NCBI RefSeq assembly: GCF_013520865.1
Contig: NZ_JACDXJ010000001.1
Span: 248,001 to 312,000, forward strand
Length of the DNA stretch: 64,000 nt
Direction: 5' to 3'
Origin: Microvirga mediterraneensis
GTDB lineage: Bacteria > Pseudomonadota > Alphaproteobacteria > Rhizobiales > Beijerinckiaceae
Shown: positions 14,538 through 36,816 of the stretch, one piece after another
Layout of the letters: the number at the start of each line of letters is the position of its first letter
Position numbering within the stretch: the stretch's first letter is position 1
The notes under the pieces: model-generated
The model's database searches: none
What the model saw: only the letters and a program-made list of their open reading frames with translations
Told to the model about the DNA's origin: nothing
Translations under genes and position numbers: made by a program

Positions 14538-14924
14538 TCAATGGCTCGTCACGAGCTCACGGATATGCTTGACCACATCCTCGCTGGAATAAGGTTTCGG
14601 CACGAAGCGTCCATCGTCCGGGATCTGTTGGGGAAGCGGCCTATGATATGCGGACGAGATCAACAGTGAGATGTGCGGCCAACGCTGCTGAACGCTTTCA
14701 GCCAAGTCCAGGCCATTCATGGATCCCGGCATGTCGATATCCGTGAAGAGTACCTGCACGTCATGAGAACAGGTTTCCAATACGGCCAAGGCTACATCGG
14801 CATTCGCAGCCTCCAGCACATGGAAGCCCGCATCCTGCAGATCCTCTGCCGCCGCCATGCGCACGAGAAGCTCATCCTCAACGAGGAGAACCACAGACGT
14901 CTCGTCTGAATAATTGTTCATCAT
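14538..14924 (-). CDS. Single-domain response regulator (receiver only)
   Basis: A 128-residue lone receiver. It has acidic residues in LLVEDELLVRM, the phosphoacceptor Asp in FTDIDMPGSMNG (about 61), and the Lys in VPKPYSSEDV. It has no output domain, so it probably acts through protein contacts or as a phosphate relay. An exact EcfG-type promoter (GGAAC-N16-CGTT on the minus strand, 14934-14958) ends about ten bases before the ATG, which predicts an almost leaderless transcript and membership of the general stress regulon. It lacks the PFxFATG motif of the SdrG/MrrA single-domain regulators. Confidence 0.85.
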   Translation of the reverse strand: MMNNYSDETSVVLLVEDELLVRMAAAEDLQDAGFHVLEAANADVALAVLETCSHDVQVLFTDIDMPGSMNGLDLAESVQQRWPHISLLISSAYHRPLPQQIPDDGRFVPKPYSSEDVVKHIRELVTSH

Positions 14925-14931
14925 GAGCGAT

Positions 14932-14958
14932 GGAACGAAACTAACTTATGTTAGTTCC
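14932..14958. promoter_or_regulatory. Palindromic, bidirectional EcfG-type promoter
   Basis: The interval between two divergent genes contains AACTAAC-TTAT-GTTAGTT inside a larger near-palindrome. On the minus strand it reads GGAAC-N16-CGTT (plus coordinates 14934-14958), an exact ECF15/EcfG promoter facing the receiver gene. On the plus strand it reads GGAAC-N16-AGTT (14932-14956), a one-mismatch promoter facing the small gene at 14996. The consensus is established knowledge; activity here is inferred. Confidence 0.6.
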
Positions 14959-17058: not shown

Positions 17059-17078
17059 GCGCCAGCCAACGCTGGCGC
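17059..17078 (-). terminator. Rho-independent terminator of the minus glycan operon
   Basis: GCGCCAGC-CAAC-GCTGGCGC, an 8-base-pair stem. Read on the minus strand it is followed by TTCTTTTCTTC, a T-rich tail. It lies 36 bases past the stop of the UDP-glucuronate-decarboxylase-like gene, the last gene of the minus arm. Confidence 0.7.
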
Positions 17079-17113: not shown

Positions 17114-18139
17114 CTACCCGGCCGAGACTGCATCACCCAGGTTCGGCACCTTGTGAGCCCGACCCTCATCGGCGTGATCCTCCGAGAACCAGGCGATGGT
17201 CGATTTCAAACCTGCATCGAGAGACGTCCGCGGCGACCAGCCGAGAAGCTTCTTGGCAAGGGTAATGTCGGGGCGCCGGCGCCGCGGATCGTCGATCGGG
17301 AGCGGACGCTTCACGACGCGAGAGGACGATCCCGTCATCGCCAGAACCTTCTCGGCCAAATCGCCGACAGTAAGTTCCACCGGGTTTCCGAGGTTCACAG
17401 CCCCTGGGAACGACCCCTCATAGGCCATGAGGCGCAGGAAACCTTCCACAAGATCCGACACGTAGCAGAACGAGCGCGTCTGGCTTCCGTCACCGTACAC
17501 CGTGATGTCCTCGCCCGCGAGAGCTTGGCAGATGACGTTCGAGACGACACGGCCGTCATCGGCTCGCATGCGCGGGCCATAGGTATTGAAGATTCGTGCC
17601 ACGCGCACTTCGGCGCGCCCCGCTCGATCGAAGTCGAATGTGAGCGTCTCGGCCGCCCGCTTTCCCTCATCGTAGCAGGCGCGCGGGCCAGTCGGGTTGA
17701 CATTGCCCCAGTAGCTCTCCGTCTGAGGGTGAACCTCGGGATCGCCGTAGATCTCGCTTGTCGAGGCAAGGAAGAAACGCGCACGAACCGACTCGGCAAA
17801 GGTGAGAAGGTTGTGCGTCCCGACGACGCTTGTCAGCATGGTATGCTCGGGATCCGCCTGGTAATGCGGAGGAGACGCTGCGCAGGCAAGATTGAAGATC
17901 TCGTCGATCTTAAGGCGCTTGGAACGCAAGCGAGCAGGCAACGGCTTGATGATATCGCCATCAACAATATCGAAACGCGGTTCACGCTCGAGATGACGGA
18001 GATTCTGCTTTCGCCCTGTTTGAAAATTGTCGAGGGCGATCACGTGAGCGCCTTCACTGAGAAGAGCATCGCAGAGATGAGACCCAAGAAATCCGGCACC
18101 ACCTGCCACGAGAACGTGCTTACTGTTGCTATTCTTCAT
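17114..18139 (-). CDS. UDP-glucuronate decarboxylase-like epimerase (UXS family)
   Basis: A 341-residue extended SDR. It has the Rossmann motif [30 protein letters not shown] and the catalytic YDEGK (in [16 protein letters not shown]). The PHYQ segment and GPR.CYDEGKR are typical of UDP-glucuronic acid decarboxylases, which make UDP-xylose; the related dTDP-glucose 4,6-dehydratases differ here. The start at MKNSNSK has AAGGAGGG eight bases upstream, clearly better than the in-frame upstream candidates. Last gene of the minus arm, separated from the glycosyltransferases by 110 bases. UDP-xylose production would fit the xylosidase-like gene of the opposite arm. Confidence 0.85.
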
Positions 18140-18249: not shown

Positions 18250-19359
18250 TCAGGACTCAACCGCCAAAGCGAACGGCTGTTCCTGGCGCCTGCGCCGAAT
18301 GGCTTCATGGAGATCCTGCTCCATCGAGGCCGCCCGGTGAGCGGCGGTGTGTTCCGCGAGAATGCGGCGCCGAGCGCGGCCCCCCATTGCCCTTCTCTGA
18401 TCTTCGGGCCATGTCGCTAGCACATCGACGACCTCTTCAGGCTTGGAGGCAAGAAGGATCTCATAACCCGGCTCGAGAAGCGTCTCGATGCCGTCCCAAA
18501 TATCGGAAACGATCGGCGTTCCGCAGGCGGCTGCCTCGAAGAGGCGAACGCTCGGGCTATATCCGGCCCGGATCATATCGGCACGCGTGACATTGAGCGT
18601 GTATCGGCTCCGCGCATAGAAAGCCGGATGATCGTCCGGCGGCACATGATCGATGCGCTCGACATTCTCCGGCCAGTCGATCCCTTCAGGATACTGCGGG
18701 CCGGCCACCGCGAAGCGCAGGTGAGGCGCGCGGCGAGCGGGTTCGATCAGGAGCCGTTCCAAGGTCGGTTGCCGGTCGGGACTATAGGTGCCGATGTAGC
18801 TGAGATCCCAACGCTTCTCGCAATCGAGAACCGGATAAGCCTCCGGATCGACGGAACAGTACAGAGCTCTTGCGGCCGGTGATCCATACCGCTCCATGAC
18901 CGCTTTGAGCGTCGGTCCGCCGGTGAATGAGAAATAGACGTCGTAATCAGGAATGAGGCCGGGTGACAGATACTCGTAGTCGCCTCGGTCCAGCTTCGCG
19001 AGCGTGACCGGCGTATCGATGTCGTAGAATGCCACGATGCCGTTCGCCAGGCGCTGTACGTGGCGACCGACATCGACTCCTTCGGGCACATAGGAGCCGA
19101 CGATCACCGCGTCGGCATTTCCGATTGCGTCTCGGTATCGGCCGAGATCCTCCAGATCGGAATAGAATTCCAGACGGCAGTAATCCGGATTCTTCAGATC
19201 GCGTTGAGCAGCGTACCATGGCACATCGCGTTCAAGAAATAGAATATCATGCCCACGAGCCGCAAAGGCTCTCAGCAAGGCGCGGAAGGTCGTTGCGTGA
19301 CCGTTGCCCCACGAAGAAGACAGGCTCAAGCCCAGGACAACGATACGGAGCTTGGTCAC
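18250..19359 (-). CDS. CgeB-like glycosyltransferase (1 of 4)
   Basis: A 369-residue GT-B protein. The N-terminus LRIVVLGLSLSSSWGNGHAT is a family hallmark, and the C-terminal nucleotide-sugar region has RLFEAAACGTPIVSD, followed by a short Arg-rich tail. It resembles the CgeB/DUF3880 spore-maturation glycosyltransferase group, retaining-type GT4 relatives. No signal peptide or membrane helix, so it acts at the cytoplasmic face. Its ATG overlaps the stop of the preceding glycosyltransferase (ATGA). It is the closest paralogue of the protein at 27064 in the other arm. Donor and acceptor unknown. Confidence 0.8.
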   Translation of the reverse strand: MTKLRIVVLGLSLSSSWGNGHATTFRALLRAFAARGHDILFLERDVPWYAAQRDLKNPDYCRLEFYSDLEDLGRYRDAIGNADAVIVGSYVPEGVDVGRHVQRLANGIVAFYDIDTPVTLAKLDRGDYEYLSPGLIPDYDVYFSFTGGPTLKAVMERYGSPAARALYCSVDPEAYPVLDCEKRWDLSYIGTYSPDRQPTLERLLIEPARRAPHLRFAVAGPQYPEGIDWPENVERIDHVPPDDHPAFYARSRYTLNVTRADMIRAGYSPSVRLFEAAACGTPIVSDIWDGIETLLEPGYEILLASKPEEVVDVLATWPEDQRRAMGGRARRRILAEHTAAHRAASMEQDLHEAIRRRRQEQPFALAVES

Positions 19360-20450
19360 GCCACGCTCCTCTCGCGCTTCTGGGCGGCTTCCTCCCGCAG
19401 GATGACGTCGACCTCTGCGCCGCGCCGGGTATAAGTGTGCTCGGCCATGATCCGGGCGCGAGCGGCATCACCGATCGTGCGGGCACGCTCAAGGGTCAGG
19501 GCCTCGACATGGTCGGCGACGTCCTTGCCGTCGCGCGCCACCAGGACCTCCTCTCCTTCCTTCAGAAACAGCTCCAGGCCGATCCAGGCATCGGTGACGA
19601 GACAGGCGCCCGCTCCCGCGGCTTCGAAGACGCGGGTCGCGGGCGAGTAGCCCGTGCTTGCCATGGAATCGCGAGCGATGTTGAGAACGGCCAGCGGGCT
19701 CGTGTTGAAGGCATTGTGATCGCGCGTGTACACATGCCCGATATGGCGCACGTTCGACGGCATGCCTCTCGTCTCCCAACCGTTGCCGCCGATCAGGAAC
19801 TTGCGGTTCGGCAGGCGCCTGGCTGGCTCGAGGAAGAACTGCTCCACCCGGGCTTCGCGGTCGGGCAGGCGATTGCCGAGAAAGGACAAATCGGCTCCGA
19901 AGCGATCATCCGCCGGAACCGGATGATGGGTCGTCGGATCGCAAGCATTGTAGATCGGAACGCAGCGGCGCGCGCCGAAGCCCTCGTAAGCGGCGATCAC
20001 CGGCGGACCGCCGCCATAGGTAAGCACGAGATCGAGCGCCGGCATGGTGCGATGGAGCGGATGGTCTGGGCTCTCGCGCAGTTCGGCCAAAGTGGCAGGA
20101 GCGTCCACGTCCCAGAAGATGCGAATGGCGTCGGGACGCGAGGCTGCCGTGACCCCTTCCAACAACTCGTTGTCGAAGACACCAACCCCGGAGGCCTTCA
20201 CCACGACGTCCGCCTTCGCGGCCTCGGCCACGACACCGCGCATGGCCTCCTCCGTCGCCGGATAGACCTTTACCTCAGCCCAATCCGGCGGCTCGATGTC
20301 CCGATGTTTCTGGCGATCGAAAGCATCCGGTTCATAGAAGGTGATGCTGTAACCACGTCGGGCAAGATCGCTCAGGAGGCCGCGATAATAGGTGGCGGCT
20401 CCATTCCAGTACGACGACAGAAGGCTGGAACCATAAAAGGCGATCTTCAT
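19356..20450 (-). CDS. CgeB-like glycosyltransferase (2 of 4)
   Basis: A 364-residue GT-B protein, starting MKIAFYGSSLLSSYWNGAAT. The C-terminal half has DLSFLGNRLPDREARVEQFF and RVFEAAGAGACLVTDAW, in the same places as in its neighbours, so the set arose by duplication. Translationally coupled on both sides by ATGA overlaps. Within the operon it would add one sugar of a short oligosaccharide or glycolipid; the linkage cannot be predicted. Confidence 0.78.
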   Translation of the reverse strand: MKIAFYGSSLLSSYWNGAATYYRGLLSDLARRGYSITFYEPDAFDRQKHRDIEPPDWAEVKVYPATEEAMRGVVAEAAKADVVVKASGVGVFDNELLEGVTAASRPDAIRIFWDVDAPATLAELRESPDHPLHRTMPALDLVLTYGGGPPVIAAYEGFGARRCVPIYNACDPTTHHPVPADDRFGADLSFLGNRLPDREARVEQFFLEPARRLPNRKFLIGGNGWETRGMPSNVRHIGHVYTRDHNAFNTSPLAVLNIARDSMASTGYSPATRVFEAAGAGACLVTDAWIGLELFLKEGEEVLVARDGKDVADHVEALTLERARTIGDAARARIMAEHTYTRRGAEVDVILREEAAQKRERSVA

Positions 20451-21559
20451 GCAGACATCTCCACCGGCGCTGAAATGCCGTAACTTGCAAGAATGGCGAG
20501 AAGCTGATCGACCCGGTGGGCACAGGAATGGCGGCTGCGAACAGCATCGAGCCCGTTCTCCACCAAGGATCGGCGCAGATCGGAATCGTTGAGGACCGAT
20601 TTCATGTGGCGCTCCATCTGCGCCTCATCCTGAGCGACCAGATAGTCCGTCCCCGGCGTGAACAGATTCTCCGAGTCATGCCACGGCGCCGAGATCAGCG
20701 GGATACCGCAGGCGAGGGCCTCGAAAACTCGGATCGTCGGAATACCGGGGAGCATATCGACGTAGAACCGCCTCGGCACATGCACGGTCGCAAGATGCTT
20801 CGCGAACACCTCGGGCGCTCGGGCGTTCGGAAGCCAGCCGCGATAGGTCACGCCATAACGGGCAAGCGTTTGAAGGGCTGCCTCCGGATAGCGGACGCCA
20901 TATATGTCGAGGGACAGGCCAGCCGTTTGCGCGGGGCGAAAGAGAAAGCTTTCCAGTTCCGCGCTTCTCTCGTCGTCCCCCCAGTTTCCGATCCAGACAA
21001 GCCCTTTCCGATCCGTCTCTTGGACAGGAGGATGAAAGAGCCGTGTATCGGCGGCTTCATGCCAGACGTGAACCCGGTTGCCCCAGCCCCAACGGCGATA
21101 AACCTCCGCGAGCGTTTCGCCAAAGGCGAGGACGCCGTCATAACCATCGAGCTCGAAACGGCGGATGGCGTCGGGATCGCTCACTGCCCTGTGATGCGTG
21201 TCATGGAAGAGGAGCGTGAACCGTCCGCCTTGTCGCCGCGCTCTGCCGATAGCGGCGACAAGCCAGGGCTCGTTCCATTCGTGAACGACCACCACATCCG
21301 CACCGGACAGGGTCTCTCCGAGGTCGACGTCGGGATCGAAAATTTCCGACGACAGTTCAGGGTAAAGGCCGCGATAGGCATGAAGACCAGCCTCTCCATG
21401 ATCCTTCAGGAGGTTCTCCAGGCTCCAGGCGCCCCGCGGTTCATAGGCTACGACATCGTGGCCGCGGTGAACGAACTCGCGCAGAACCCCGCGCAGAAAA
21501 TGCGCATTGCCGTGATTCCAGCACGAGGCGAGGGAATGCGTGAAATAGATGAGCTTCAT
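20447..21559 (-). CDS. CgeB-like glycosyltransferase (3 of 4)
   Basis: A 370-residue GT-B protein, starting MKLIYFTHSLASCWNHGNAH. Key segments are FLRGVLREFVHRGHDVVAYEP, GLVWIGNWGDDERSAELESF and RVFEALACGIPLISAPW. It is more divergent from the other three paralogues but keeps the same frame of motifs. Coupled by four-base overlaps to genes on both sides. No membrane segment. Function inferred at family level only. Confidence 0.78.
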   Translation of the reverse strand: MKLIYFTHSLASCWNHGNAHFLRGVLREFVHRGHDVVAYEPRGAWSLENLLKDHGEAGLHAYRGLYPELSSEIFDPDVDLGETLSGADVVVVHEWNEPWLVAAIGRARRQGGRFTLLFHDTHHRAVSDPDAIRRFELDGYDGVLAFGETLAEVYRRWGWGNRVHVWHEAADTRLFHPPVQETDRKGLVWIGNWGDDERSAELESFLFRPAQTAGLSLDIYGVRYPEAALQTLARYGVTYRGWLPNARAPEVFAKHLATVHVPRRFYVDMLPGIPTIRVFEALACGIPLISAPWHDSENLFTPGTDYLVAQDEAQMERHMKSVLNDSDLRRSLVENGLDAVRSRHSCAHRVDQLLAILASYGISAPVEMSA

Positions 21560-22689
21560 GCAGCGGCTTCCTCAAGTGAGGATCTCGGGGGCTCGCGGCG
21601 CAAGACGGAATAGTAAGCGCTCAGGACCCCCGCGCTCATGGCGGCGGCCGTATAGGTATAGGCCCGCTCTCGCGCGCGGCGCCCCAATGCGGCGCGGGAC
21701 TCCGGATCCTGCAGAAGTCGCTCGATCTCCTCAGCCGCCGCGCCGTCATCATCGGGCGCAACGAACAATGCGGCGCCCTCCCACAATTCACGGAATGTCG
21801 GAATATCGGACAAAACGAGCGCGCATCCGTGCTGAGCGGCTTCTAGGACCGCAAGGCCGAAAGGCTCATACCGCGCCATCGAAAGAAAGATGGGCTCTCT
21901 GCTCAGGTGCCGGGCAATCTCTGAATCGCTCAAGCGACCAAGCGGCCTCGCATGACACACGTCAACATGCGCGCCGTTTGGGCCGTCGAGCGGCCCGGCC
22001 GCAAGGATCGGCACTGTGAGCCGCGAAGAAATCCGGTCGATGACGGCGAAATTCTTGCCTTCGTCCCAGAGGCGCCCAGCGGTAAAAACGAAATCCTCAT
22101 CGGATTCCGATCGGCTCGCGATGGCGGAACGTCGGCCGTTCGGGACAACATGGGGCGCCTGAACGAGACCATAGACCTGCGCAGTTGCCTGAGCAAAGGC
22201 CCACGTCGGCGCGAGCAGTCGGTCCACGGACGAATAACCCTTCGCTACGAGTTCCGTGCGCCAAGCGAACTCCTCCGGCAGAGGACCGTCCTTGACGGCC
22301 TGCCACCAAGTCGCAACGCAGGAATGACAAACCGCCACAACCGGGATGTCGAACGACACATGGGCTGCAAGGGCCGGAGAATTGAGGTGAATGAGATCTG
22401 GCCTGATCTGCGCAGCGACGCGAGCGACTGCGCGGCCGGTTTCCTCGACCTCGCGGGCATTATCTGCCGTCCAATCGAGTGGAAGGTCTGTCAGGATGAG
22501 CTTTGCACCGACGGCCTCGGCCATGGCCTGCTGGTCTGACGAGGGAGGGGGGCCCAGCACTGCTATTGTCGTCCTGACACCCTCCGAGCACAAGCCTTTC
22601 GCGAGATCCAGCGCATATTGCCAGACGCCGCCGACCGCATCTGCCGTCATGAGCACATGCAGGCCTGCGGCTTTGTCAGACCCTTCCAT
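21556..22689 (-). CDS. Family 4 glycosyltransferase
   Basis: A 377-residue GT4 protein with the typical N-terminal loop ADAVGGVWQYALDLAKGL. In the C-terminal domain it has FVFTAGRLWDEGKN and EPFGLAVLEAAQHGCALVLSDI, where the EX7E motif (EPFGLAVLE) is intact. GT4 enzymes are retaining and use nucleotide sugars. It is separated by 45 bases from the epimerase upstream and coupled to the CgeB-like gene downstream. Confidence 0.87.
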   Translation of the reverse strand: MEGSDKAAGLHVLMTADAVGGVWQYALDLAKGLCSEGVRTTIAVLGPPPSSDQQAMAEAVGAKLILTDLPLDWTADNAREVEETGRAVARVAAQIRPDLIHLNSPALAAHVSFDIPVVAVCHSCVATWWQAVKDGPLPEEFAWRTELVAKGYSSVDRLLAPTWAFAQATAQVYGLVQAPHVVPNGRRSAIASRSESDEDFVFTAGRLWDEGKNFAVIDRISSRLTVPILAAGPLDGPNGAHVDVCHARPLGRLSDSEIARHLSREPIFLSMARYEPFGLAVLEAAQHGCALVLSDIPTFRELWEGAALFVAPDDDGAAAEEIERLLQDPESRAALGRRARERAYTYTAAAMSAGVLSAYYSVLRREPPRSSLEEAAA

Positions 22690-22734: not shown

Positions 22735-23850
22735 TCACAAAGCCTCTGCATTCTGCAGACGTGAAGGCAACGAACCTGAACGTGCGAGCTCCCGTTCATC
22801 CTGCAGCCACTCCGCAAGGGCGGCCACGCCCTTGAGCCAAGTGACAGGCTGACTCAACCCGAGTTCCCGGGTTGCGAGGTGCGTGTCGGAAACGTAGTAG
22901 CGTTGATCGCCGGCACGCCAGTCGTCGTAGATCGTCTCGACAGGACGGCCAATCACCTCCTCGATGTGGGTGAGAAGCTGGCGCAAGCTGATGGCATTGG
23001 ACGGACCACCTCCGAGATTGAAGGCTCTGCCCTGAACCGCATCGATGCGCTTCCACGCGGCCGCATAAGCGGAGACAGCATCGGAGATGTCGAGCACGTC
23101 GCGAACCTGGCAGCCGTCGCCGTAAATGGTGATTGGCTCGCCTTGAAGCGCACGGATCAGGAAGTGAGCCACCCAGCCCTGGTCCTCGGTCCCCATCTGT
23201 CGCTGACCGTAGATGCAGCTCATCCGCATGACGCAGGTCGGCATCCCGAACGAGCGGGCATAATCCAGTACATACTGATCGGCGGCGCCCTTCGAGCAAC
23301 CATACGGAGTATGAAAATCGAGGGGCCGGCTTTCGCCGATCCCGGCGTTCCTGATCGCAGGGTCGCGCGGCATGTAGGCGTCGTTGGTCTTCTCTAATTC
23401 CACATCCGCGAGATCGCCGTAGACCTTGTTCGTGGACGCAAAGATCAACGGGATTCGCTCGCCGCGTTGCCTCAGCGCATCGAGCACGTTCAGCGTTCCG
23501 CGAATGTTGATCTCGAAATCCTCGCGGGGATCGGCGAGACTGGTCGTCACCGCAACCTGCGCAGCCATGTGGAAAACGGCCTGTGCATCACGAACGACTT
23601 CAGTGACGGCCGCCTCATCGCGAACGTCGCCGATTACTGTGGAAATTTTGCCCGGATGTCGCTTCTTGAGCCATTCGAGATTCCGCTCGACACCGGAGCG
23701 CGCCAGGGCATCGTAGATCAGGACATCATGGCCCTCGCTCGCGAAACGATCGGCGAGGTTGGAGCCGATGAACCCCGCGCCGCCTGTCACCAAGATCGGG
23801 CGGCGATGGAGGACAGCCGGCGCGGCGGCCGATGTATCTGACGCCGTCAT
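22735..23850 (-). CDS. NAD-dependent sugar epimerase, CDP-paratose/tyvelose epimerase-like
   Basis: A 371-residue extended SDR: VTGGAGFIGSNL, DVRD, FASTNKVYGDL, catalytic Tyr/Lys in YGCSKGAADQY, and RMSCIYGQRQMGTEDQGWVAHF. The STNKVYGD and YGQRQ.G.EDQGW pattern is typical of CDP-tyvelose (CDP-paratose) 2-epimerases, although related UDP-sugar epimerases share it. It acts on a nucleotide-activated sugar in the cytoplasm. The start overlaps the stop of the epimerase upstream (ATGA). The exact substrate is not secure. Confidence 0.8.
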   Translation of the reverse strand: MTASDTSAAAPAVLHRRPILVTGGAGFIGSNLADRFASEGHDVLIYDALARSGVERNLEWLKKRHPGKISTVIGDVRDEAAVTEVVRDAQAVFHMAAQVAVTTSLADPREDFEINIRGTLNVLDALRQRGERIPLIFASTNKVYGDLADVELEKTNDAYMPRDPAIRNAGIGESRPLDFHTPYGCSKGAADQYVLDYARSFGMPTCVMRMSCIYGQRQMGTEDQGWVAHFLIRALQGEPITIYGDGCQVRDVLDISDAVSAYAAAWKRIDAVQGRAFNLGGGPSNAISLRQLLTHIEEVIGRPVETIYDDWRAGDQRYYVSDTHLATRELGLSQPVTWLKGVAALAEWLQDERELARSGSLPSRLQNAEAL

Positions 23851-24959
23851 GCCACTAGGCCTCGCGCTTCCAGCTCCTTACGGGCTTCGTTGACCAGATC
23901 CTTGGCTTCCTGTCTGGCAACCCATTCGGCAAGCTCCGCCAAGCCCTCGGCAAAATCCTTTCTCGGCTTGTAACCCAGCTCCTGCTGGATCTTGCTGATA
24001 TCGGCAATGCAATGGCGAATGTCGCCGATGCGCGCCTTGCCGGCGATTTCCGGCGCCATCGGACGGTTCATCGCCTGCGAAAGAAGTTCCGCCACTTCGG
24101 ATACGGTACGATCCTGGCCGCTGCCGACATTATAGACGCCGCCCGGAGCATTCTCATGCTCGAGAGCCAAGACGAATGCCTGCGCCACGTCCTCCACATG
24201 GACGAAGTCGCGACGCTGCCGTCCATCCTCGAAGATCATCGGCGGCTGTCCATTGTGAAGCCGCGATGCGAAGATGGCGAGGACCCCGGTATAAGGATTT
24301 GACAGAGCCTGCCCCGGGCCGTAGGCATTCCACAACCGAAGCGCCACTCCCTCCATGCCGTAAGCCGGACACAGCGTCAGGGTCAGTCGTTCCTGAACGT
24401 ATTTCGAGAGCGCGTAAACCGATGCCAGCGCAGGCTTTTTCCATTCGGGCGTCGGAACGGGAATGAGCGGGCATCCCCGCTCGTCCAACGGATCCCAAGA
24501 ATCTTTCTCGCTCTTGCGAGGCACACGAACGACATCTTCATGGATGCGTCCATCCCCATCCTTGTAGAGGCCTTCGCCGTAAATGCTCATGGATGAAGCC
24601 ACGACCACCCGCTTCACCGGATTGTCGATGAGCTGCTGGAACAGCACGGCCGTACCGTAATCGTTGACGGAGACATAGCGATCTACCGCATACATGCTCT
24701 GGCCGACACCGACCTCCGCGGCAAGGTGGACGACTTTCGTTGCACCCTTCAGGGCCCTAAGAAGCGCCGTCTCATCGCGCACATCCCCAACCACCACCTC
24801 CACGTCCGGATCGAGACCCTCGCCCTGCGTTCTGTCTCCATGAACCTGCTCGATGAGACTGTCGAGTACACGCACCTTGTGGCCATGCTCTAAGCAAGCC
24901 TGCGCAACATAACGTCCGATGAAGCCCGCACCGCCGGTAATGAGGATCGTATCCGTCAC
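23847..24959 (-). CDS. NAD-dependent sugar epimerase/dehydratase
   Basis: A 370-residue extended SDR with ITGGAGFIGRYVAQ, ASSMSIYGEG, catalytic Tyr/Lys in YALSKYVQER, and RLWNAYGPGQALSNPYTG. The motifs place it near UDP-glucose/UDP-galacturonate 4-epimerases. I chose the GTG at 24959 (VTDTILITGG) because CTGGAGAT lies eight bases upstream; the longer reading frame begins with an implausible basic segment. First gene of the minus arm of the glycan locus. A one-mismatch EcfG promoter lies about 190 bases upstream. Confidence 0.82.
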   Translation of the reverse strand: MTDTILITGGAGFIGRYVAQACLEHGHKVRVLDSLIEQVHGDRTQGEGLDPDVEVVVGDVRDETALLRALKGATKVVHLAAEVGVGQSMYAVDRYVSVNDYGTAVLFQQLIDNPVKRVVVASSMSIYGEGLYKDGDGRIHEDVVRVPRKSEKDSWDPLDERGCPLIPVPTPEWKKPALASVYALSKYVQERLTLTLCPAYGMEGVALRLWNAYGPGQALSNPYTGVLAIFASRLHNGQPPMIFEDGRQRRDFVHVEDVAQAFVLALEHENAPGGVYNVGSGQDRTVSEVAELLSQAMNRPMAPEIAGKARIGDIRHCIADISKIQQELGYKPRKDFAEGLAELAEWVARQEAKDLVNEARKELEARGLVA

Positions 24960-25149
24960 AAGATATCTCCAGATTGGTTTCCGGGTTAAGCGCCGATGGG
25001 TCAGACAGGAGACGACAACCCATCCCCATGGTGGAGATGCGACGCGGAACATGCGCATCTTCCAGGTAGAGAATAGGCCCTGAAGCGGCCCTCGCCGAAC
25101 GAGGTCTACGCTATATATCCCCTTCGATAGCTTGAGCTTGCGCAGAGAA

Positions 25150-25174
25150 AACTACGCATCTTCATCTTTGTTCC
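25150..25174 (-). promoter_or_regulatory. EcfG-like promoter of the minus glycan operon
   Basis: On the minus strand: GGAAC, 16 bases, AGTT; one mismatch to GGAAC-N16/17-CGTT. It would start a transcript about 185 bases before the GTG at 24959. It lies in the same 409-base divergent region as the exact site at 25241, facing the other way. Confidence 0.45.
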
Positions 25175-25240
25175 TGACTTGAACACAGTAGTTTAGGCGC
25201 TCGGCGGGGAAGACAAGAGTCACAGACCCGGAATCTGGGC

Positions 25241-25266
25241 GGAACAACAAACCTTCTTCAAACGTT
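25241..25266 (+). promoter_or_regulatory. Exact EcfG (general stress) promoter of the inositol/glycan operon
   Basis: GGAAC (25241-25245), 17 bases, CGTT (25263-25266): a full match to the ECF15/EcfG consensus of the PhyR-NepR-EcfG system. Predicted transcription starts about 95 bases before the inositol-3-phosphate synthase ATG at 25369. The rest of the divergent region (24960-25368) holds no gene I can support. Confidence 0.65.
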
Positions 25267-25368
25267 GAATGCCACGCTTTGAAAAAGGTCGCAGCCGAAT
25301 GCCTGCGGCCTGCAGATGCTTTTGCCTAAAAAAGAAACACCCGGCGGGCCGTGCAAGGGAGATCAGTC

Positions 25369-26451
25369 ATGAGTTCGAGCAAGGTCCGCGTCGGTATCGT
25401 GGGCGTCGGCAATTGTGCCTCGTCTTTCGTGCAGGGTCTCTCCTATTACAAGGATGCAAAAGGGAACGAGCCGGTGCCTGGCCTGATGAATGTCGAGCTT
25501 GGCGGATATCATATCAGTGACATCGAGATTTCCGCAGCCTTCGACGTGAATGTCTCGAAAGTGGGCCACGATGTCTCCGAAGCGATCTTTGCCGAACCAA
25601 ACAATACGCAGCGCTTTGCGGCCGTTCCTCCCAGCGGAATCATCGTCAAGCGGGGAAGAACGCTCGATGGGCTTGGCAAATATCTTCATGACGTGATTGG
25701 TGAGTCTCCTGAAGACGAAGTCGATGTCGCGGAGATTTTGCGTCAATCCAAGACTGATGTTCTTGTCTCCTATCTGCCTGTCGGTTCGCAGAAAGCGACG
25801 GAATGGTACGCCGAGCGTGCGCTCGAAGCCGGCTGTGCATTCGTGAACTGCATCCCCGTCTTCATCGCGTCGAATCCGGAATGGCGCAGGCGGTTTGAAG
25901 AGCGTGGTCTCCCTATCGTCGGCGACGACATCAAGAGCCAGGTGGGTGCCACCATTGTTCATCGTGTGCTCGCCAATCTATTTCGCGAACGTGGCGTGCG
26001 CCTCGATCGTACCTACCAGCTGAATTTCGGCGGCAACACAGATTTCCAGAACATGCTGGAACGCGAGCGTCTCGAATCGAAGAAGATATCCAAAACGCAG
26101 GCCGTCTCGAGCCAGCTGGATATTCCCCTTCCCGCAGGCGACATCCATGTGGGCCCAAGTGACCATGTTCCGTGGCTCACCGACCGCAAATGGGCCTACA
26201 TCCGCCTGGAGGGGACAACTTTCGGCGGCGTTCCGCTGAACATGGAAGTGAAACTCGAGGTCTGGGATTCACCGAACTCCGCCGGCATCGTGATCGATGC
26301 GGTGCGCTGCGCAAAGCTCGCCATGGATCGTAAGATCGGCGGCGCTCTCACCGGCCCGTCCAGCTACTTCATGAAGTCTCCGCCGCAGCAATTCACCGAC
26401 AACGAGGCTCGCGACAGGACAATCCGCTTCATTAACGGCGACGAAGATTAG
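25369..26451 (+). CDS. ino1: Inositol-3-phosphate synthase
   Basis: A 360-residue cytoplasmic enzyme that converts glucose 6-phosphate to 1D-myo-inositol 3-phosphate with bound NAD. It carries [17 protein letters not shown] (NAD-binding), [27 protein letters not shown] and [14 protein letters not shown], all diagnostic, and is of the short bacterial/actinobacterial type rather than the ~510-residue eukaryotic one. The start at MSSSKVRV has AGGGAGA nine bases upstream. First gene of a six-gene operon and preceded by an exact EcfG promoter. Ino1 is uncommon in this class and points to an inositol-containing product of the locus. Confidence 0.93.
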
Positions 26452-26467
26452 AGCCTTGGAGGTCGAG

Positions 26468-27067
26468 ATGACCACCACGTTCTTTCTCGTGCGCCACGCC
26501 GCCCATGATTGGGTAGGGACAGTTCTGTGCGGCCGCATGCCTGGCGTTCATCTCGGCGCTGCAGGGAAAGCCCAGGCGGAGCGTCTGGCTCAGCGCTTTC
26601 TTAACGAGAGAGTGGACGCCATTTACACAAGTCCTCTTGAGCGGGCGTCGGAAACGGCGCAGCCCATCGCTTCCCGTCTCGAACGATCTCTTCAGATATG
26701 CGATGCCATCAGTGAAGTCGAATTCGGCCGATGGACAGGCATGAGTTTCGAATCCCTGAGCCGAGATCCGCTCTGGTCGTCCTGGAATGCATCGCGCAGC
26801 ACCAATCGCGCTCCCGATGGCGAGACGATGCTGGAGGCTCAGGGACGTATCGTCGGGGCCATGGAACAGATGCGCAACCGTTATGCGGGGCGTGCGCTCA
26901 TTCTCGTGAGCCACAGCGACGTCATCAAGGCTGCGATTCTCCACTACCTTGGCATGCCGGTCGACGCCTATGACCGCATCGAAGTGGAGCCCGCCTCGAT
27001 CAGCACTCTCGTCGTGGGTGATTGGGGTTCCAAGCTTCTCCGATTGAACGAAGTGGTGGCCGCATGA
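26468..27067 (+). CDS. Histidine phosphatase superfamily protein
   Basis: A 199-residue phosphoglycerate-mutase-like phosphatase. The catalytic His is in FLVRHAAHDW, followed by the usual Arg in YTSPLERASETAQ, an acidic FGRWTGMSF segment and the second His in VSHSDVIKAAI. GGAGG precedes the chosen ATG. Annotated relatives include alpha-ribazole and broad sugar phosphatases. Placed between inositol-phosphate synthase and a glycosyltransferase, it may release inositol from inositol phosphate or act on a glycosylated phosphate, as in the order used in mycothiol synthesis; that is inference. Confidence 0.85.
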   Translation: MTTTFFLVRHAAHDWVGTVLCGRMPGVHLGAAGKAQAERLAQRFLNERVDAIYTSPLERASETAQPIASRLERSLQICDAISEVEFGRWTGMSFESLSRDPLWSSWNASRSTNRAPDGETMLEAQGRIVGAMEQMRNRYAGRALILVSHSDVIKAAILHYLGMPVDAYDRIEVEPASISTLVVGDWGSKLLRLNEVVAA

Positions 27068-28173
27068 AGATCGTCATATTCGGCCTGACCATCTCGTCAT
27101 CTTGGGGCAACGGCCACGCAACCTTATGGCGCGGCCTATGCCGGGCGCTCGCAAAGCGCGGGCATAGAATCGTGTTCTTCGAGAAGGACGTGCCCTACTA
27201 CGCCGAGAACCGGGATCTCATCGAAGTGCCCGATGGCAACCTTATCCTCTACGAGGATTGGGAGAGCATTCGCGCTCGCGCTGAAATGGAACTCAAGGAT
27301 GCAGACTTCGCCCTCGTCTCGTCCTATTGTCCCGACGGCATCACGGCTGGCGATCTCCTGCTTTCTGCGCCGCGCGCCATTCGCGCATTCTACGATCTCG
27401 ATACTCCCATCACCTTCTCGCGCCTCGATACGGGCGGGCCCATCAGCTACATCGGCTCACGCGGGCTCGGAGATTTCGACCTTGTCCTGAGTTATACGGG
27501 AGGCCGGGCCATTGAAAGACTGCGGACAGATCTCGGCGCCCAACGCGTCGCTCCTCTCTATGGCCATGTGGACCCGGATGTGCACAGACCCGTGCATACC
27601 ATCCGGCACTATGTTTCCGATCTATCCTATCTCGGCACCTATGCGGCTGATCGCCAGAATGCATTGCAGCGTCTCTTCATCGACCCTGCCGCCTTCCGGC
27701 CGGATCGGCGCTTCCTGATCGGCGGAGCGCAGTACCCGGAGGATTTCCCATGGCAGCCCAATATCCATTTCGTCCAGCACCTGCCGCCGCCAGAGCATCC
27801 TGCGTTCTTCTCGTCCTCGCGGCTTACGCTCAACATCACGCGGCAAGCCATGGCCGAGATGGGCTGGTGCCCTTCAGGGCGCCTGTTCGAGGCGGCAGCC
27901 TGCGGTGCGCCTATTCTCTCGGACTGGTGGGTGGGCCTCGACAGCTTCTTCGAGCCTGGCAAGGACATCCTGATCGCTGCAAATACGGACGATGCCGTCG
28001 CGGCCCTCGACCTGACGGACGCCGAGCTGACGCGAATTGCCAGGGCAGGCCGTGAGAGGACGCTCGCAGAGCACACGTCGGATCATCGGGCGAAGGAGCT
28101 TGAGAACCTGATCGAGGGCTCAACATCCCTTCTGTGCCCGGCCGAAAGTTCCACCGCCATGATGGAGGCCTGA
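27064..28173 (+). CDS. CgeB-like glycosyltransferase (4 of 4)
   Basis: A 369-residue GT-B protein, starting MKIVIFGLTISSSWGNGHAT, with DLSYLGTYAADRQNALQRLF and GRLFEAAACGAPILSDWW. It is strikingly similar in length and motif layout to the protein at 18250 in the opposite arm, so duplication linked the two operons. Its ATG overlaps the phosphatase stop (ATGA). Following ino1 and the phosphatase, it may glycosylate inositol or inositol phosphate. Acceptor unproven. Confidence 0.8.
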   Translation: MKIVIFGLTISSSWGNGHATLWRGLCRALAKRGHRIVFFEKDVPYYAENRDLIEVPDGNLILYEDWESIRARAEMELKDADFALVSSYCPDGITAGDLLLSAPRAIRAFYDLDTPITFSRLDTGGPISYIGSRGLGDFDLVLSYTGGRAIERLRTDLGAQRVAPLYGHVDPDVHRPVHTIRHYVSDLSYLGTYAADRQNALQRLFIDPAAFRPDRRFLIGGAQYPEDFPWQPNIHFVQHLPPPEHPAFFSSSRLTLNITRQAMAEMGWCPSGRLFEAAACGAPILSDWWVGLDSFFEPGKDILIAANTDDAVAALDLTDAELTRIARAGRERTLAEHTSDHRAKELENLIEGSTSLLCPAESSTAMMEA

Positions 28174-28175
28174 TC

Positions 28176-28988
28176 ATGTGGGGAATCATACCTGCTGCGG
28201 GCATCGGCAGCCGCATTCAGCCCCTGGCCTTCTCGAAGGAGCTTCTGCCCGTGGGCAGCCGCCTCGACAACGGCATCGAACGCCCCTGTGCCGTCAGTGA
28301 ATATCTCGTCGAGCGCATGATTCATGGCGGAGCGGACAAGATCTGCTTCGTCATCTCTCCCGGCAAATCGGACATTATGGAATACTATGGCGCAAGCTAT
28401 GGCAGCGCTTCCATCGCCTATGTGGTCCAGCCGGAAGCACGTGGCCTGTGCGACGCGATCTTCCAGGCGGCTCCGCTCATTCCCGCCGATGAGGGCGTGA
28501 TCGTCGGCCTGCCGGATACGGTCTGGTTTCCCGAGAAGGCCCTGGCGGAACTGCCGGACGACTGTCTCTCCTTCCTGCTCTTTCCGGTCGATAATCCCGA
28601 GGTCTTCGATGCGGTGATCCTGGACGAGACGATGCAGGTTCAGGAAATCCAGGTCAAACAGGCCGATGCCGCTTCACGCTGGATCTGGGGCGCCTTCAAG
28701 ATGCCGGGTCATGTGCTCGCAACGTTGCGCAAGCTATGGATGTCACGCAATCGCGATGATGAATTTTTCGGCACGCTCGTGAATGCCTACTTGGCTGAAG
28801 GCGGCAGGGCCCTCGGGCTGAGAGCGGGCCAATCCTATGTAGACGTCGGAACCTTGCACGGCTATCGCGCCGCCATCGGCCTCCTGAGCGACGCGGCCCA
28901 GCATGAAACCTTTACCGGTGCGCGCGTCGCTCTCGGCTGGCCCGCGGGCCGACTGCCGCGCGGGCTTCATGATTTGAACAGGGAGTAA
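28176..28988 (+). CDS. Sugar-phosphate nucleotidyltransferase
   Basis: A 270-residue Rossmann-type enzyme. The N-terminus MWGIIPAAGIGSRIQPLAFS-KELLPVG is the nucleotide-binding signature (GxGxR...P...KELLP), close to RmlA/GalU types. LPDTVWFPEKAL resembles the metal-binding Asp segment and SYVDVGTLHGY the C-terminal DVGT loop of this family. It joins NTP and a sugar 1-phosphate to give an NDP-sugar for the locus. The ATG comes two bases after the preceding stop, with GGAGGCC upstream. Whether the sugar is glucose, or even inositol phosphate, cannot be told. Confidence 0.85.
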   Translation: MWGIIPAAGIGSRIQPLAFSKELLPVGSRLDNGIERPCAVSEYLVERMIHGGADKICFVISPGKSDIMEYYGASYGSASIAYVVQPEARGLCDAIFQAAPLIPADEGVIVGLPDTVWFPEKALAELPDDCLSFLLFPVDNPEVFDAVILDETMQVQEIQVKQADAASRWIWGAFKMPGHVLATLRKLWMSRNRDDEFFGTLVNAYLAEGGRALGLRAGQSYVDVGTLHGYRAAIGLLSDAAQHETFTGARVALGWPAGRLPRGLHDLNRE

Positions 28989-28996
28989 TCGTCACG

Positions 28997-29770
28997 ATGA
29001 ATGCCATCGATCCCATGCGGCTTGACGAAATCCGTCAGAAAGCCGAAGCGCTCGGGCCCTGGTTTCACAATATCGAGCTCAAGGGAGGCGTCTGGACCGC
29101 GCCGAACCATTTCCTCGGCAATTATCCTGCCGTGAAGTGGCAGCGGTTTTCGGATGCGATCCCGCAGGACCTCACAGGGAAAAGCGTCCTCGACATCGGC
29201 TGCAACGGCGGCTTCTACTCGATGGAGATGAAGAAGCGCGGCGCGGAACGCGTCCTCGGTATCGACTTCGATGAAGCCTATCTCGCGCAGGCGCGCTTTG
29301 CCGCGCAGACGATGGATTACGATATCGAGTTCCGGAAACTGTCCGTCTATGACCTGGGTCAGCTCGGCGAACGGTTCGACGTCGTGCTCTTCATGGGCGT
29401 GCTCTATCACCTGCGGCATCCATTGCTAGCACTCGATCTCATTCACGAGCACGTCGCCAAGGATCTTCTCGTGTTCCAGTCGATGCAACGCGGCTCCACG
29501 GAGGTCATGCCTGTCGAGGAAAACTACACCTTCTGGCAGACGGATCACTTCGACGATCCGCGCTATCCGAAGATGCATTTCATCGAGCATCGCTATGCCG
29601 ACGACCCTACCAATTGGTGGGCGCCCAATTCCGGCTGCGTCGAAGCCATGCTCCGCAGCGCCGGGTTCGAGATCGTCCAGCATCCTGAAACTGAAGTTTA
29701 CATCTGTCGCCGTGTCGATGCCCCACCCGGTGCGGGTGCGGTCTACCCGGCGCAAGGGAGACACGCATGA
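28997..29770 (+). CDS. Class I SAM-dependent methyltransferase, CmoB-like
   Basis: A 257-residue methyltransferase. Motif I is VLDIGCNGGFYSMEM (about residues 67-81), followed by GIDFDEAYLAQARF and FDVVLFMGVLYHLRHP. Relatives include CmoB-type proteins and methyltransferases of polysaccharide loci. The tail after residue ~240 (VDAPPGAGAVYPAQGRHA) is extra and Pro/Gly-rich. Stop overlaps the start of the glycosidase gene (ATGA), so the two are co-translated. In this operon it probably methylates a sugar or inositol. Confidence 0.82.
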   Translation: MNAIDPMRLDEIRQKAEALGPWFHNIELKGGVWTAPNHFLGNYPAVKWQRFSDAIPQDLTGKSVLDIGCNGGFYSMEMKKRGAERVLGIDFDEAYLAQARFAAQTMDYDIEFRKLSVYDLGQLGERFDVVLFMGVLYHLRHPLLALDLIHEHVAKDLLVFQSMQRGSTEVMPVEENYTFWQTDHFDDPRYPKMHFIEHRYADDPTNWWAPNSGCVEAMLRSAGFEIVQHPETEVYICRRVDAPPGAGAVYPAQGRHA

Positions 29771-30696
29771 TCGAAGCCGCGATGATCTGGAACGAGCCCA
29801 ACAACAAGTCTCATTGGGACCCGGAGATCGACCCGGATTGGAGGCTCTTCTCCGACATGGTGATTGCCGCAGGCCAGGCGATCAAGGCCGAGAATCCCAA
29901 TCTGCCGCGCGTTCTCGGTGGCATCTCGCCCATCGACCCCGGCTTCATCAGGAAGCTGGAAGGACACGGCGCTCTCGATCACCTGGACGTCGTGGCCGTT
30001 CACGGCTTCCCGCTCGACTGGAACCTGTGGCAGATCCATGAATGGCCCGCGAAAATCGACGAGATCCGCGCCGTGACGAACAAGCCCATCTGGGTCAGTG
30101 AGGTCGGAATCTCAACCTTCGGGGCAGAGGAAGTGCAGGTCTGGGGCTTGAACCGGACCGCCGAGCTCCTGATCGGCAAGGTGCCGAAGATCCATTGGTA
30201 CAGCCTCTACGATCTCCCCCGCGCTTGGGAAGCCACGACACGCCACCGGGAGGCCGAGGGCTCATCCTATTATCGGCACTTCTACATGGGGCTCCTGCGC
30301 GAGGACGGAACGCCGAAACCTTCTCTCGAGGAGTTCGCCAAGCACGCGCCGCAGATGGGGCTGTGCCAGTGGTTCCACTATGAGGACCACCGTCTCGACG
30401 ATGCCGTGGCATGGATGAAACGCCTGGGCGTCAAGTACCTGCGCACCGGTTTGTCCTGGGCCGACAGCTTCCGTCCGAACGCATTGGATTGGTTCGACCG
30501 GCAGATGGAAGCGCTTGCGGATTTCGACGTGACGGTGACCTTCTGCTTCACGCCGGAACATCGCGGGATCGCGCCTCACCACACCAGCGCGCCGCAGGTG
30601 AAGGAGGAATTTGCGGAGTTCTGTGCCAGCATGATCCGCCGCTATGCGCCTTCAAGTCAGCCTGATGAAGCGAGCAAGGTTCTGGAAGCTCTCTGA
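29767..30696 (+). CDS. Clan GH-A glycoside hydrolase, beta-xylosidase-like, apparently circularly permuted
   Basis: A 309-residue protein. The acid/base motif WNEPNN sits at residues 8-13 (E10) and the nucleophile motif WVSEVGIS near residue 112 (E112), about 100 apart as in GH39-type barrels. In usual GH-A enzymes about three beta/alpha units come before WNEPN. Here they seem to follow strand 8 instead: GLCQWFH (198-204), VKYLRTGLSW (about 222-231), VTVTFCFTPE (about 256-265). No room exists upstream, because the start overlaps the methyltransferase stop and that gene ends normally. The protein thus looks like a permuted (beta/alpha)8 barrel, or a lineage that lost one half of a tandem. No signal peptide. 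It may trim or transfer sugars on the locus product in the cytoplasm. Confidence 0.75.
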   Translation: MIEAAMIWNEPNNKSHWDPEIDPDWRLFSDMVIAAGQAIKAENPNLPRVLGGISPIDPGFIRKLEGHGALDHLDVVAVHGFPLDWNLWQIHEWPAKIDEIRAVTNKPIWVSEVGISTFGAEEVQVWGLNRTAELLIGKVPKIHWYSLYDLPRAWEATTRHREAEGSSYYRHFYMGLLREDGTPKPSLEEFAKHAPQMGLCQWFHYEDHRLDDAVAWMKRLGVKYLRTGLSWADSFRPNALDWFDRQMEALADFDVTVTFCFTPEHRGIAPHHTSAPQVKEEFAEFCASMIRRYAPSSQPDEASKVLEAL

Positions 30697-30869: not shown

Positions 30870-31898
30870 CTATCGTCCATAAATCCGGTCGAGCACCTTT
30901 GCGACATCGACCAGTTGCTCTGCGGCCCGATCGAACCCCTCCCCGGCCGCCAGGCGGGATGCCCAATCTGCCGCCGCGCGTCCGCCCCATTCGTCCGGCG
31001 GGGAGGTCAGCGTCTCGCGCGACGTGCCCCAATAGCGCTCGGCCGTAAAGTCATAGAACGAACCGTTCACGTTGCGCAGCGCCACGCCGCCCTGCGTTCC
31101 GTAGAACGTGGCCGAGATGATTGCATCGGATCCGGCCTGAAGCCGCCAGGAACAGGCGAGCTGGATCACGGCGCCCGTGTTCAGCTCGACAGTCGCGACG
31201 GCATAATCTTCCACCTGCGAGGCGGAATCCTTGAGCGGCGCGCCACCTGCGAAGAGCTTGCCCGTGACACCCCCGACGCCGGGGTTGTTCAATGCCCAAA
31301 GGGCGAGATCGACCAGATGGACACCGAGATCCATCACGCAGCCGCCCCCGGACAGAGCTGGATCGTAGAACCAGGGCTTGTCCGGGCCATAGGCGTTGTG
31401 GAACACGAGATCCACGGCATAGACGTGTCCCAGTTCGCCTGAATCGATGATCTCGCGGATGCGCCGCATGCCTTCCGTAAAGCGGTATGAGAGGTCGACA
31501 CATAGCAGGCGACCGGCCTTTCGCGCCGCATCGACCACCGCCTGCACCTCTGCCGCGGTTCGCCCGAGCGGCTTCTGGCAGAACACGGCGACGCCGTGCT
31601 CCAAAGCTTGGATCGACTGCGCCGCATGCATGGCACTAGGGGTTGCAATCACGACGCCATCAACGCCGAGGTCGAGGATCTCGTCGAGACTGGAAACCAG
31701 TTGCGCTTTGGGCGCCAGCTTGCCGGCTTCGGCGGCCATGTCGGGAGATGGGTCGGCAATGGCAGCAACGTCGGCGACACCGGCGCCGAGGATCGCCTGC
31801 ATGCGGTGCCGCCCGATCCAGCCGACGCCGAGGAAGCCGAGACGCGGACGCGCGGGAGAGGTTCCAGAACTCGTCTTGAGCACAGCCTGTTGCACCAT
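30870..31898 (-). CDS. Gfo/Idh/MocA family oxidoreductase
   Basis: A 342-residue NAD(P)-dependent enzyme. A Rossmann domain shows LGFLGVGWIGRHRMQAIL. CQKPLGRTAAEVQ is the EKP-type motif (Glu replaced by Gln, Lys kept), and GGGCVMDLGVHLVDLALW carries the GG..D.G.H pattern. The family oxidises or reduces sugars, inositols or sugar nucleotides; inositol 2-dehydrogenase belongs here. Start overlaps the stop of the zinc-alcohol-dehydrogenase-like gene by one base (TGATG). The pair converges on the ino1 operon, 173 bases away, and plausibly makes a modified sugar for it. Confidence 0.85.
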   Translation of the reverse strand: MVQQAVLKTSSGTSPARPRLGFLGVGWIGRHRMQAILGAGVADVAAIADPSPDMAAEAGKLAPKAQLVSSLDEILDLGVDGVVIATPSAMHAAQSIQALEHGVAVFCQKPLGRTAAEVQAVVDAARKAGRLLCVDLSYRFTEGMRRIREIIDSGELGHVYAVDLVFHNAYGPDKPWFYDPALSGGGCVMDLGVHLVDLALWALNNPGVGGVTGKLFAGGAPLKDSASQVEDYAVATVELNTGAVIQLACSWRLQAGSDAIISATFYGTQGGVALRNVNGSFYDFTAERYWGTSRETLTSPPDEWGGRAAADWASRLAAGEGFDRAAEQLVDVAKVLDRIYGR

Positions 31899-32851
31899 CA
31901 GTACGTCACCAGGGCCTTGAGGAAACCGTCGGGCCGGTCGCGCGTGGCGTTCAGCGCTTCGTCGAGTCGCTCCAGAGGATAGGTGTGGGTGTAGAGGACG
32001 CTCGGATCGAGGCGCCCCGACGCGATAGCATCCACCGCCTCGCGCAAACCCTGCACGTAGATCTTCGGATCGCGTTCATGCGCGTTGATCACGTCGATGC
32101 CGCGCCAGTTCCAGAGCCACATATTGACCTGCCGCGGGCCATCCTGATGATAGCCGGCCACGATCAGCTTGCCGCGCTCGCGGGTCAGTTCCCCGGCGAG
32201 ATCAAGCGGCCATTGCTTGCCGACGGCCTCGATCACGCGGTCGCAGAACGTGCCGCCGGTCAGTTCCTTGACTTGCTCGATGATCGCATGGTGATCGTCC
32301 ATCGGGATCGTCTCGACCGCGCCCATGCGGCGTGCCAGCTCGAGCGAGAACGGCCGTCGCGAGATCGCGATCACCCGCGCGCCGGCGTCAGAGGCGAGCT
32401 TCGTGAGAATGGCGCCGAGAAAGCCGATGCCAACAATGGCGATCGTCTGCCCGGCCACGATGTCGCTGCGCCGGAAGATGTTCATCGCGCAGCCGAGCGG
32501 CTCACCGGGAAAAGCCTGGCCCGCCAGGGCATCAGGCAGGCGTACGACCACGTCGGCCTCTGCCAGATCGTATTCCGCATAGGATTTGTAGGAGAGCGCC
32601 GCGACCCGGTCTCCGACCGCCAGGTCTTCGACACCTTCGCCGACCGCGTCCACGAAGCCCCAGGCTTCATGTCCGAGAGCGCCCGGCTCGGTGGGATACT
32701 GCATCCATTCGGGGCCGGCCCAAGGTGTCAGGTTGGATGCGCAGACGCCACAGCCTTCCAGGCGAAGCCGCACCTGTCCTCGCCCCGGCACCGGACGCGC
32801 CACCTCGCTGACCTTGATCCGCCCGGGTCCCGTGAGGATGGCTGCCCGCAT
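31898..32851 (-). CDS. Medium-chain (zinc-type) alcohol dehydrogenase-like protein
   Basis: A 317-residue MDR protein. It keeps CGVCASNL and GALGHEAWG (catalytic-type Cys and His-Glu) and a Rossmann AIVGIGFLGAILTKLA, but lacks the four-Cys structural zinc loop. I chose the ATG at 32851 (MRAAILTG), though its ribosome-binding site is weak; the frame extends 38 residues upstream from TTG through a Ser/Gly-rich segment, so the true N-terminus is unsure. Coupled to the Gfo/Idh/MocA gene. Such pairs occur in polysaccharide loci, where they modify sugars. Confidence 0.78.
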   Translation of the reverse strand: MRAAILTGPGRIKVSEVARPVPGRGQVRLRLEGCGVCASNLTPWAGPEWMQYPTEPGALGHEAWGFVDAVGEGVEDLAVGDRVAALSYKSYAEYDLAEADVVVRLPDALAGQAFPGEPLGCAMNIFRRSDIVAGQTIAIVGIGFLGAILTKLASDAGARVIAISRRPFSLELARRMGAVETIPMDDHHAIIEQVKELTGGTFCDRVIEAVGKQWPLDLAGELTRERGKLIVAGYHQDGPRQVNMWLWNWRGIDVINAHERDPKIYVQGLREAVDAIASGRLDPSVLYTHTYPLERLDEALNATRDRPDGFLKALVTY

Positions 32852-33022
32852 GTTTGCCGGAGCCCCGGCCGGCTCATCGCTCCCCTTCGACGCAGAAGCG
32901 GAATTGTTGCTGCCGGCACCACTCTCTTTCAGCAAGTTCGTCCCTCCACCATAGCGCCCGAGCAATTAGAGATGGGAGAGGAGACTTCAAGGCTCGACTA
33001 TTTGTAACAAGGGATTGTGAGC

Positions 33023-36787: not shown

Positions 36788-36816
36788 AGGAACGCCTGAT
36801 CTGCCTCCGTTTTCCG

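Follow-up and report, generated by a model that had tools for sequence, protein, structure and literature searches.

The window, i.e., the whole stretch of DNA that was analysed, spans 64 kb of contig C1 (248001–312000) and encodes an inositol-3-phosphate synthase, Ino1, that is 95–96% identical to its best matches, the products of three Microvirga records (L001, L002 and L051). The ino1 gene heads a rightward arm of six genes, and a leftward arm of seven genes, headed by an epimerase gene, departs in the opposite direction. The gap between them measures 406 bp with the epimerase start placed at 24962, or 409 bp with the next in-frame GTG, and holds two promoter-like boxes, each oriented toward its own operon:

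25241–25266, plus strand: plus box, putative EcfG-type promoter of the ino1 operon (GGAAC-N17-CGTT, exact consensus)
25150–25174, minus strand: minus box, putative EcfG-type promoter of the epimerase/glycosyltransferase operon (GGAAC-N16-AGTT)

In the plus box, a 17-nt spacer separates GGAAC (25241–25245) from CGTT (25263–25266), and the ino1 ATG (25369) follows 102 nt further on; in the minus box, GGAAC (25174–25170) and AGTT (25153–25150) are 16 nt apart, about 190 nt ahead of the TTG/GTG start near 24962. Both boxes have the exact −35 GGAAC of EcfG (ECF15) promoters, and their spacers fall in the allowed 16–17 nt, the lengths found in the consensus sequences given in part of PMC4814048. The plus −10 is exact, and the minus AGTT is a one-base variant that was counted as accepted; sections of PMC7083833 describe the EcfG −10 as flexible. 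Our data thus agree with the sequence-only reading, which had proposed two divergent EcfG-type boxes here, one exact and one with a single mismatch; both are present at the coordinates listed. A search of the 406-bp gap for a sigma-70-like promoter gave no match, and no RNA element was found in 24900–25500 (Rfam, E 0.1).

The rightward arm comprises:

25369–26451, plus strand: ino1, inositol-3-phosphate synthase of actinobacterial type (PF01658; 1gr0, E 4e-147)
26456–27067, plus strand: histidine-phosphatase family enzyme (PF00300; TIGR03848 below cut-off)
27064–28173, plus strand: glycosyltransferase, PF13524 domain (start at the first Met of the frame)
28176–28988, plus strand: sugar-phosphate nucleotidyltransferase-like protein (PF00483; weak RmlA/GalU matches; start at the first Met of the frame)
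28997–29770, plus strand: methyltransferase of TIGR04290 (382 bits, above the curated cut-off of 300)
29767–30696, plus strand: clan GH-A glycosidase-like protein, last gene of the arm, circularly permuted relative to PslG as judged from their alignment

The structure 1gr0 is the inositol-3-phosphate synthase from M. tuberculosis. In Actinobacteria, a mycothiol-type inositol-3-phosphate synthase supplies the mycothiol pathway, in which inositol is glycosylated. Ino1 here is nearest to the actinobacterial type, however, it scores 547 bits against the mycothiol INO1 equivalog TIGR03450, under the curated cut-off of 638, one glycosyltransferase matches MshA only at E 4e-4, and across both arms the 13 genes gave no family match to any other mycothiol enzyme. 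The histidine-phosphatase family enzyme is a candidate inositol-phosphate phosphatase, its substrate being a presumption.

PslG acts in Pseudomonas Psl exopolysaccharide. Both halves of the glycosidase-like protein align with it, and the motifs WNEPN and SEVG are present, however, the halves stand in swapped order and the protein lacks a strongly hydrophobic segment: residues 3–185 match PslG 132–320 and residues 198–295 match PslG 22–130, which gives an order of barrel strands different from that of PslG. Catalysis in clan GH-A relies on two glutamates, one in an NEP motif and a second Glu. Here E10 and E112 are invariant in 30/30 aligned rows, in keeping with this pattern. With its halves swapped, the sequence reaches the GH39 family of Pfam (PF01229) at E 0.049, below cut-off, while none is listed for the native order. 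Comparison of a structural model with known structures (VIA-align) returned generic TIM-barrel matches; PslG is absent among the 50 rows listed, which is uninformative either way. This permuted PslG-like glycosidase is strongly conserved in the cluster.

The leftward arm comprises:

23847–24962, minus strand: SDR epimerase, UDP-glucose 4-epimerase-like, first gene of the arm (PF01370)
22735–23850, minus strand: SDR enzyme nearest to CDP-tyvelose 2-epimerase (9rl0, E 2e-83)
21556–22689, minus strand: GT4-type glycosyltransferase (PF13439/PF00534)
20447–21559, minus strand: glycosyltransferase (PF13524 family match)
19356–20450, minus strand: glycosyltransferase (PF13524 family match)
18250–19359, minus strand: glycosyltransferase (PF13524 family match)
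17114–18139, minus strand: UDP-glucuronate decarboxylase (UDP-xylose synthase), last gene of the arm (4gll, E 6e-102; 2b69, E 7e-102; start at the first Met of the frame)
17059–17078, minus strand: terminator-like stem of 8 pairs with a T-rich tail, just past the arm (consensus scan only)

With the ORF starts as chosen, intergenic gaps within the arms range from −40 to 83 bp. Further terminator-like stems lie within the two arms (the region has 16, where 10.2 are expected), and a single transcript per arm is therefore not assured. The sequence-only reading spoke of a complete glycan pathway, for which we find no support, since the 13 genes yielded no family match to a polymerase, flippase, exporter or priming transferase and a simple hydropathy scan of their products gave no transmembrane segment. 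Judging from these genes, the product of the cluster may be a soluble glycoside or a lipid-linked oligosaccharide.

Exact GGAAC-N16/17-CGTT matches number 3 in the window against 0.74 expected, a count reached in 2/100 shuffles, and 124 in the genome against 77 for the reversed pattern. On these counts a lone exact match is weak evidence, and related loci were therefore compared. The comparison set was drawn from the best 80 of 167 loci encoding a relative of the ino1 product, of which 79 were used; the omitted locus, L015, holds a second ino1 copy of one species, lacks the cluster and has an N17-AGTT box. By record title the 79 loci comprise 25 that are Microvirga-like (one titled simply Rhizobiales bacterium), 37 others, mostly alphaproteobacterial (L041 and L055 are titled simply Proteobacteria), and 17 non-alphaproteobacterial loci.

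Within 250 bp upstream of ino1, a GGAAC-N16/17-NGTT box is present in 24/25 Microvirga-like, 26/37 other and 0/17 non-alphaproteobacterial loci, where dinucleotide shuffles predict 0.24, 0.24 and 0.08, respectively; the exact CGTT form accounts for 23 of 25, 12 of 37 and 0 of 17. The non-alphaproteobacterial control is small, as just 4/17 loci (L058, L059, L066 and L070) show other cluster genes. Upstream of the epimerase gene, all 24 Microvirga-like loci carry the NGTT box (0.18 expected from mononucleotide shuffles). When 14 other genes of the Microvirga-like loci and their neighbours were examined in the same way, 13 had no box ahead of them and the UDP-xylose synthase gene had an NGTT box in 6/25, genes having been placed by best tblastn hits, with cross-hits between glycosyltransferases possible and SpoVR testable in one locus only. 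Conservation across orthologous loci, the check that the sequence-only reading had proposed for the boxes, is thus borne out in the Microvirga-like loci (24/25 and 24/24 against about 0.2 expected), and conservation at both operon heads places the boxes above chance, with the proviso that loci of one genus are not independent of each other.

In an alignment of 25 divergent regions (the window and 24 relatives), the 5-mer with the highest conservation is the minus-box −35 (100%). Mean conservation is 96% over the nine minus-box positions and 94% over the nine plus-box positions, against 65% overall. The nine minus-box positions are 89–100% identical to the window in 24/24 relatives and the nine plus-box positions 100% identical in 22/24, whereas the remaining divergent region is just 28–59% identical in 19/24. 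Ranked against all placements with the same two-block geometry (345 in each case), the minus box comes 2nd and the plus box 5th; the four plus-type placements above the latter overlap the minus box. The strict plus box is lost in L024, where a CATT variant is present; in L021 it is present, aligned at a different place.

Outside Microvirga the picture is more varied. The box is missing upstream of ino1 in 11/37 other loci. Counting the Microvirga-like loci as well, 12 loci lack it, and in six of these (L024, L043, L050, L053, L062 and L063) GGAAC is instead paired with CATT or CCTT as the −10. We also considered the box as a general feature of the ino1 genes of the class. A class-wide draw contained an Ino1 relative at E 1e-60 in 22/289 genomes, the window's own included; in the class-wide sample of 22 other loci (about 4 kb each) the strict box occurs in 1/22 (L111, GGTT), which speaks against such generality, and it occurs in 0/4 of those with further cluster genes (L097, L098, L108 and L109). 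L097 carries GGAAC-N16-CATT about 80 bp ahead of the start. As far as sequence can tell, the link between ino1 and the box is firm in Microvirga, common in related Rhizobiales and some Roseomonas relatives, and not general.

The methyltransferase gene provides a further case. Wherever no other cluster gene precedes it, it has an NGTT box of its own (8/8 loci, 0.04 expected), beginning 73–173 bp upstream; one of these boxes is CGTT. The eight loci belong to Chelativorans, Phyllobacterium, Paramesorhizobium, Mesorhizobium and a Phyllobacteriaceae bin, with six copies free-standing and two just upstream of ino1, and as the loci are related to each other they may represent one event. The remaining 26/34 non-Microvirga loci with a methyltransferase gene have no own box for it; two of these 26, L056 and L068, have it at a distance from ino1 but embedded among other cluster genes.

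The reading we favour, that EcfG controls both arms, is very probably correct. It is supported by the conservation of the boxes and their near restriction to operon heads, by the methyltransferase gene having its own box in all eight loci where no cluster gene precedes it, and by the promoters of the genome's own phyR and nepR-ecfG genes, which have the same box types. The genome encodes PhyR, NepR and EcfG, the ecfG gene being so named because it follows nepR and has a sigma2 match. The divergent phyR and nepR-ecfG genes (C1, 3946.5–3947.3 kb) have back-to-back exact GGAAC-N16-CGTT boxes at 3946777–3946801 (minus) and 3946808–3946832 (plus); around phyR and the second nepR there are also boxes with N17 spacing and N17-AGTT variants, and an N17-AGTT box also lies ahead of an ORF for a small hydrophobic protein beside the second nepR. 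These findings strongly support the proposal of the sequence-only reading that both arms stand under PhyR–NepR–EcfG, while control itself is something we infer.

It is improbable that only the ino1 promoter is EcfG-type in this strain, the minus box having decayed and the left arm being driven otherwise. The minus-box −10 is indeed off consensus in the window (AGTT), and among the 24 relatives it is CGTT in 17, AGTT in 6 and TGTT in one. Outside Microvirga the epimerase gene has a strict box in 5/19 loci and none in 14/19; where it is detached from ino1, an exact CGTT box is found in L044, L048 and L055, and none in L033, L038, L045, L049, L057 and L061. However, the minus-box GGAAC is invariant in 25/25 sequences and the GTT is kept while the rest of the region drifts, and the N17-AGTT box near the second nepR offers a parallel in the same genome. 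A marginally less probable explanation places the locus outside the general stress response, with another ECF sigma factor, or one specific EcfG paralogue, acting at the boxes. Four NepR matches reach or exceed the cut-off in this genome, and nine of its ten PhyR_sigma2-type matches exceed theirs, so more than one factor could be the one that acts; against this, the form of the boxes matches that at the phyR and nepR-ecfG promoters, and M. extorquens EcfG paralogues are said, in part of PMC4814048, to recognise similar promoters. That the boxes are chance or passively inherited sequence devoid of promoter function is very improbable, since nearly all the conserved boxes stand at the two operon heads or at the free methyltransferase gene and their flanks are conserved far less, even though exact matches are common across the genome (124, with 77 for the control pattern).

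Control of both arms by EcfG would operate as follows. The 406-bp gap would act as two back-to-back promoters of the general-stress sigma factor; under stress, PhyR would be phosphorylated and sequester NepR, and the EcfG so freed would, with RNA polymerase, start transcription about 7 nt past each −10, with predicted start sites near 25272–25275 on the plus strand and 25141–25144 on the minus strand. The predicted rightward transcript would run from ino1 through the phosphatase, glycosyltransferase, nucleotidyltransferase and methyltransferase genes to the glycosidase gene, and the leftward one from the two epimerase genes through the four glycosyltransferase genes to the UDP-xylose synthase gene. 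The sugar product of this inositol-making cluster would probably be formed under stress. Our preferred guess, offered tentatively, is that the enzymes jointly assemble an inositol glycoside or oligosaccharide, methylated and containing xylose, with a protective role for the cell.

Both leaders of the Microvirga-like loci carry a related sequence after the −10, GGCCAAGCTT-like in form:

25271–25281, plus strand: leader element GCCACGCTTTG (GGCCAAGCTT-like in relatives), 4 nt past the plus −10
25127–25136, minus strand: leader element CTCAAGCTAT (GCCAAGCTT in many relatives), 13 nt past the minus −10

CAAGCT lies at most 26 nt from the −10 in 18/24 plus leaders and 23/25 minus leaders, the plus leader of the window having CACGCT. 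This CAAGCT-type element could be the operator of a second regulator or a feature of the 5′ end of the RNA. Other EcfG-like promoters of Microvirga may carry it as well. Matches to GCCAAG or CAAGCTT after the −10 exceed the reversed control, but many of them are this locus itself or one sequence recurring across several genomes, which leaves them uninformative about such promoters in general. A bolder and rather doubtful extension is that many soil Alphaproteobacteria make an undescribed methylated, xylosylated inositol glycoside as a dedicated output of the stress response, with a permuted PslG-type enzyme and a second signal acting at the shared CAAGCT leader element.

Compared with the PhyR–NepR–EcfG regulon of Alphaproteobacteria, the locus shares the −35 GGAAC, the 16–17-nt spacer and the −10 CGTT or variant, with the regulator genes behind the same boxes, but differs in its target, an inositol-synthesis and glycosyltransferase cluster; the cluster would represent new targets of a known kind of regulation. 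The sequence-only reading regarded EcfG control of an inositol-synthesis locus as undescribed, and our literature search is compatible with this without proving it, subscription papers lying mostly outside the search. In searches that paired inositol with the name EcfG but not RpoE2, no match joined EcfG, the general stress response and inositol-3-phosphate synthase, while EcfG and inositol occur together in five papers, one of them on inositol catabolism in Ensifer aridi. The locus itself was not found described, and the literature searched, seen in part, yielded no inositol-synthesis and glycosyltransferase cluster as an EcfG target. The word inositol has no occurrence in PMC3892343, PMC4814048 and PMC7083833, and in part of PMC5591287 it appears only as myo-inositol, a carbon source. 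Two further systems were compared. Sections of PMC6599016 report EcfG-dependent expression of glycosyltransferase/exopolysaccharide genes in Sphingomonas melonis Fr1 (#3505–3509), however, #3505 was tested there as a putative indirect target, the boxes of #3506–3509 score low, the likeness is by description only, and inositol has 0 occurrences in the main text. In Ensifer aridi, inositol metabolism has RpoE2 sites upstream of iolR (RpoE2/IolR; PMC8877191, in part), but the sites are only predicted and the genes serve inositol breakdown and transport rather than synthesis.

In part of PMC6599016, about 40% of the EcfG-dependent genes of S. melonis are without assignable function, which makes a conserved and biochemically readable EcfG target useful. 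The likely outputs of the stress response would gain the synthesis of inositol de novo, together with a glycan cluster not yet characterised, in Microvirga and in Bradyrhizobium, Chelativorans, Bosea and Roseomonas relatives with the ino1 box. A concrete hypothesis follows, namely that the product of the cluster accumulates under stress and protects.

Several neighbouring features of the window deserve mention. Gfo/Idh/MocA and zinc dehydrogenase genes (30870–32965, minus strand), with below-cut-off similarity to inositol dehydrogenases, adjoin the cluster in many loci and have no boxes. A 585-residue protein (40429–42186, plus strand) has no Pfam or NCBIfam match, and its relatives adjoin the cluster in L020, L041, L043 and L066. 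An exact GGAAC-N16-CGTT (14934–14958, minus strand) lies just 9 nt ahead of a gene for a single-domain response regulator (14538–14924), as counted from its listed start, and an exact GGAAC-N17-CGTT (42189–42214, plus strand) lies 62 nt ahead of a gene for a BrkB/YihY-family membrane protein (42277); a promoter sequence near-identical to the latter, with its AACGGCCAAG continuation, recurs in 5/25 other genomes of the genus (G003, G009, G017, G020 and G021). The SpoVR, DUF444 and PrkA genes occupy 33942–38781 (minus strand), and such genes are linked to stress in other bacteria; within the extent of the loci, 17/25 of the Microvirga-like ones have SpoVR next to the cluster.
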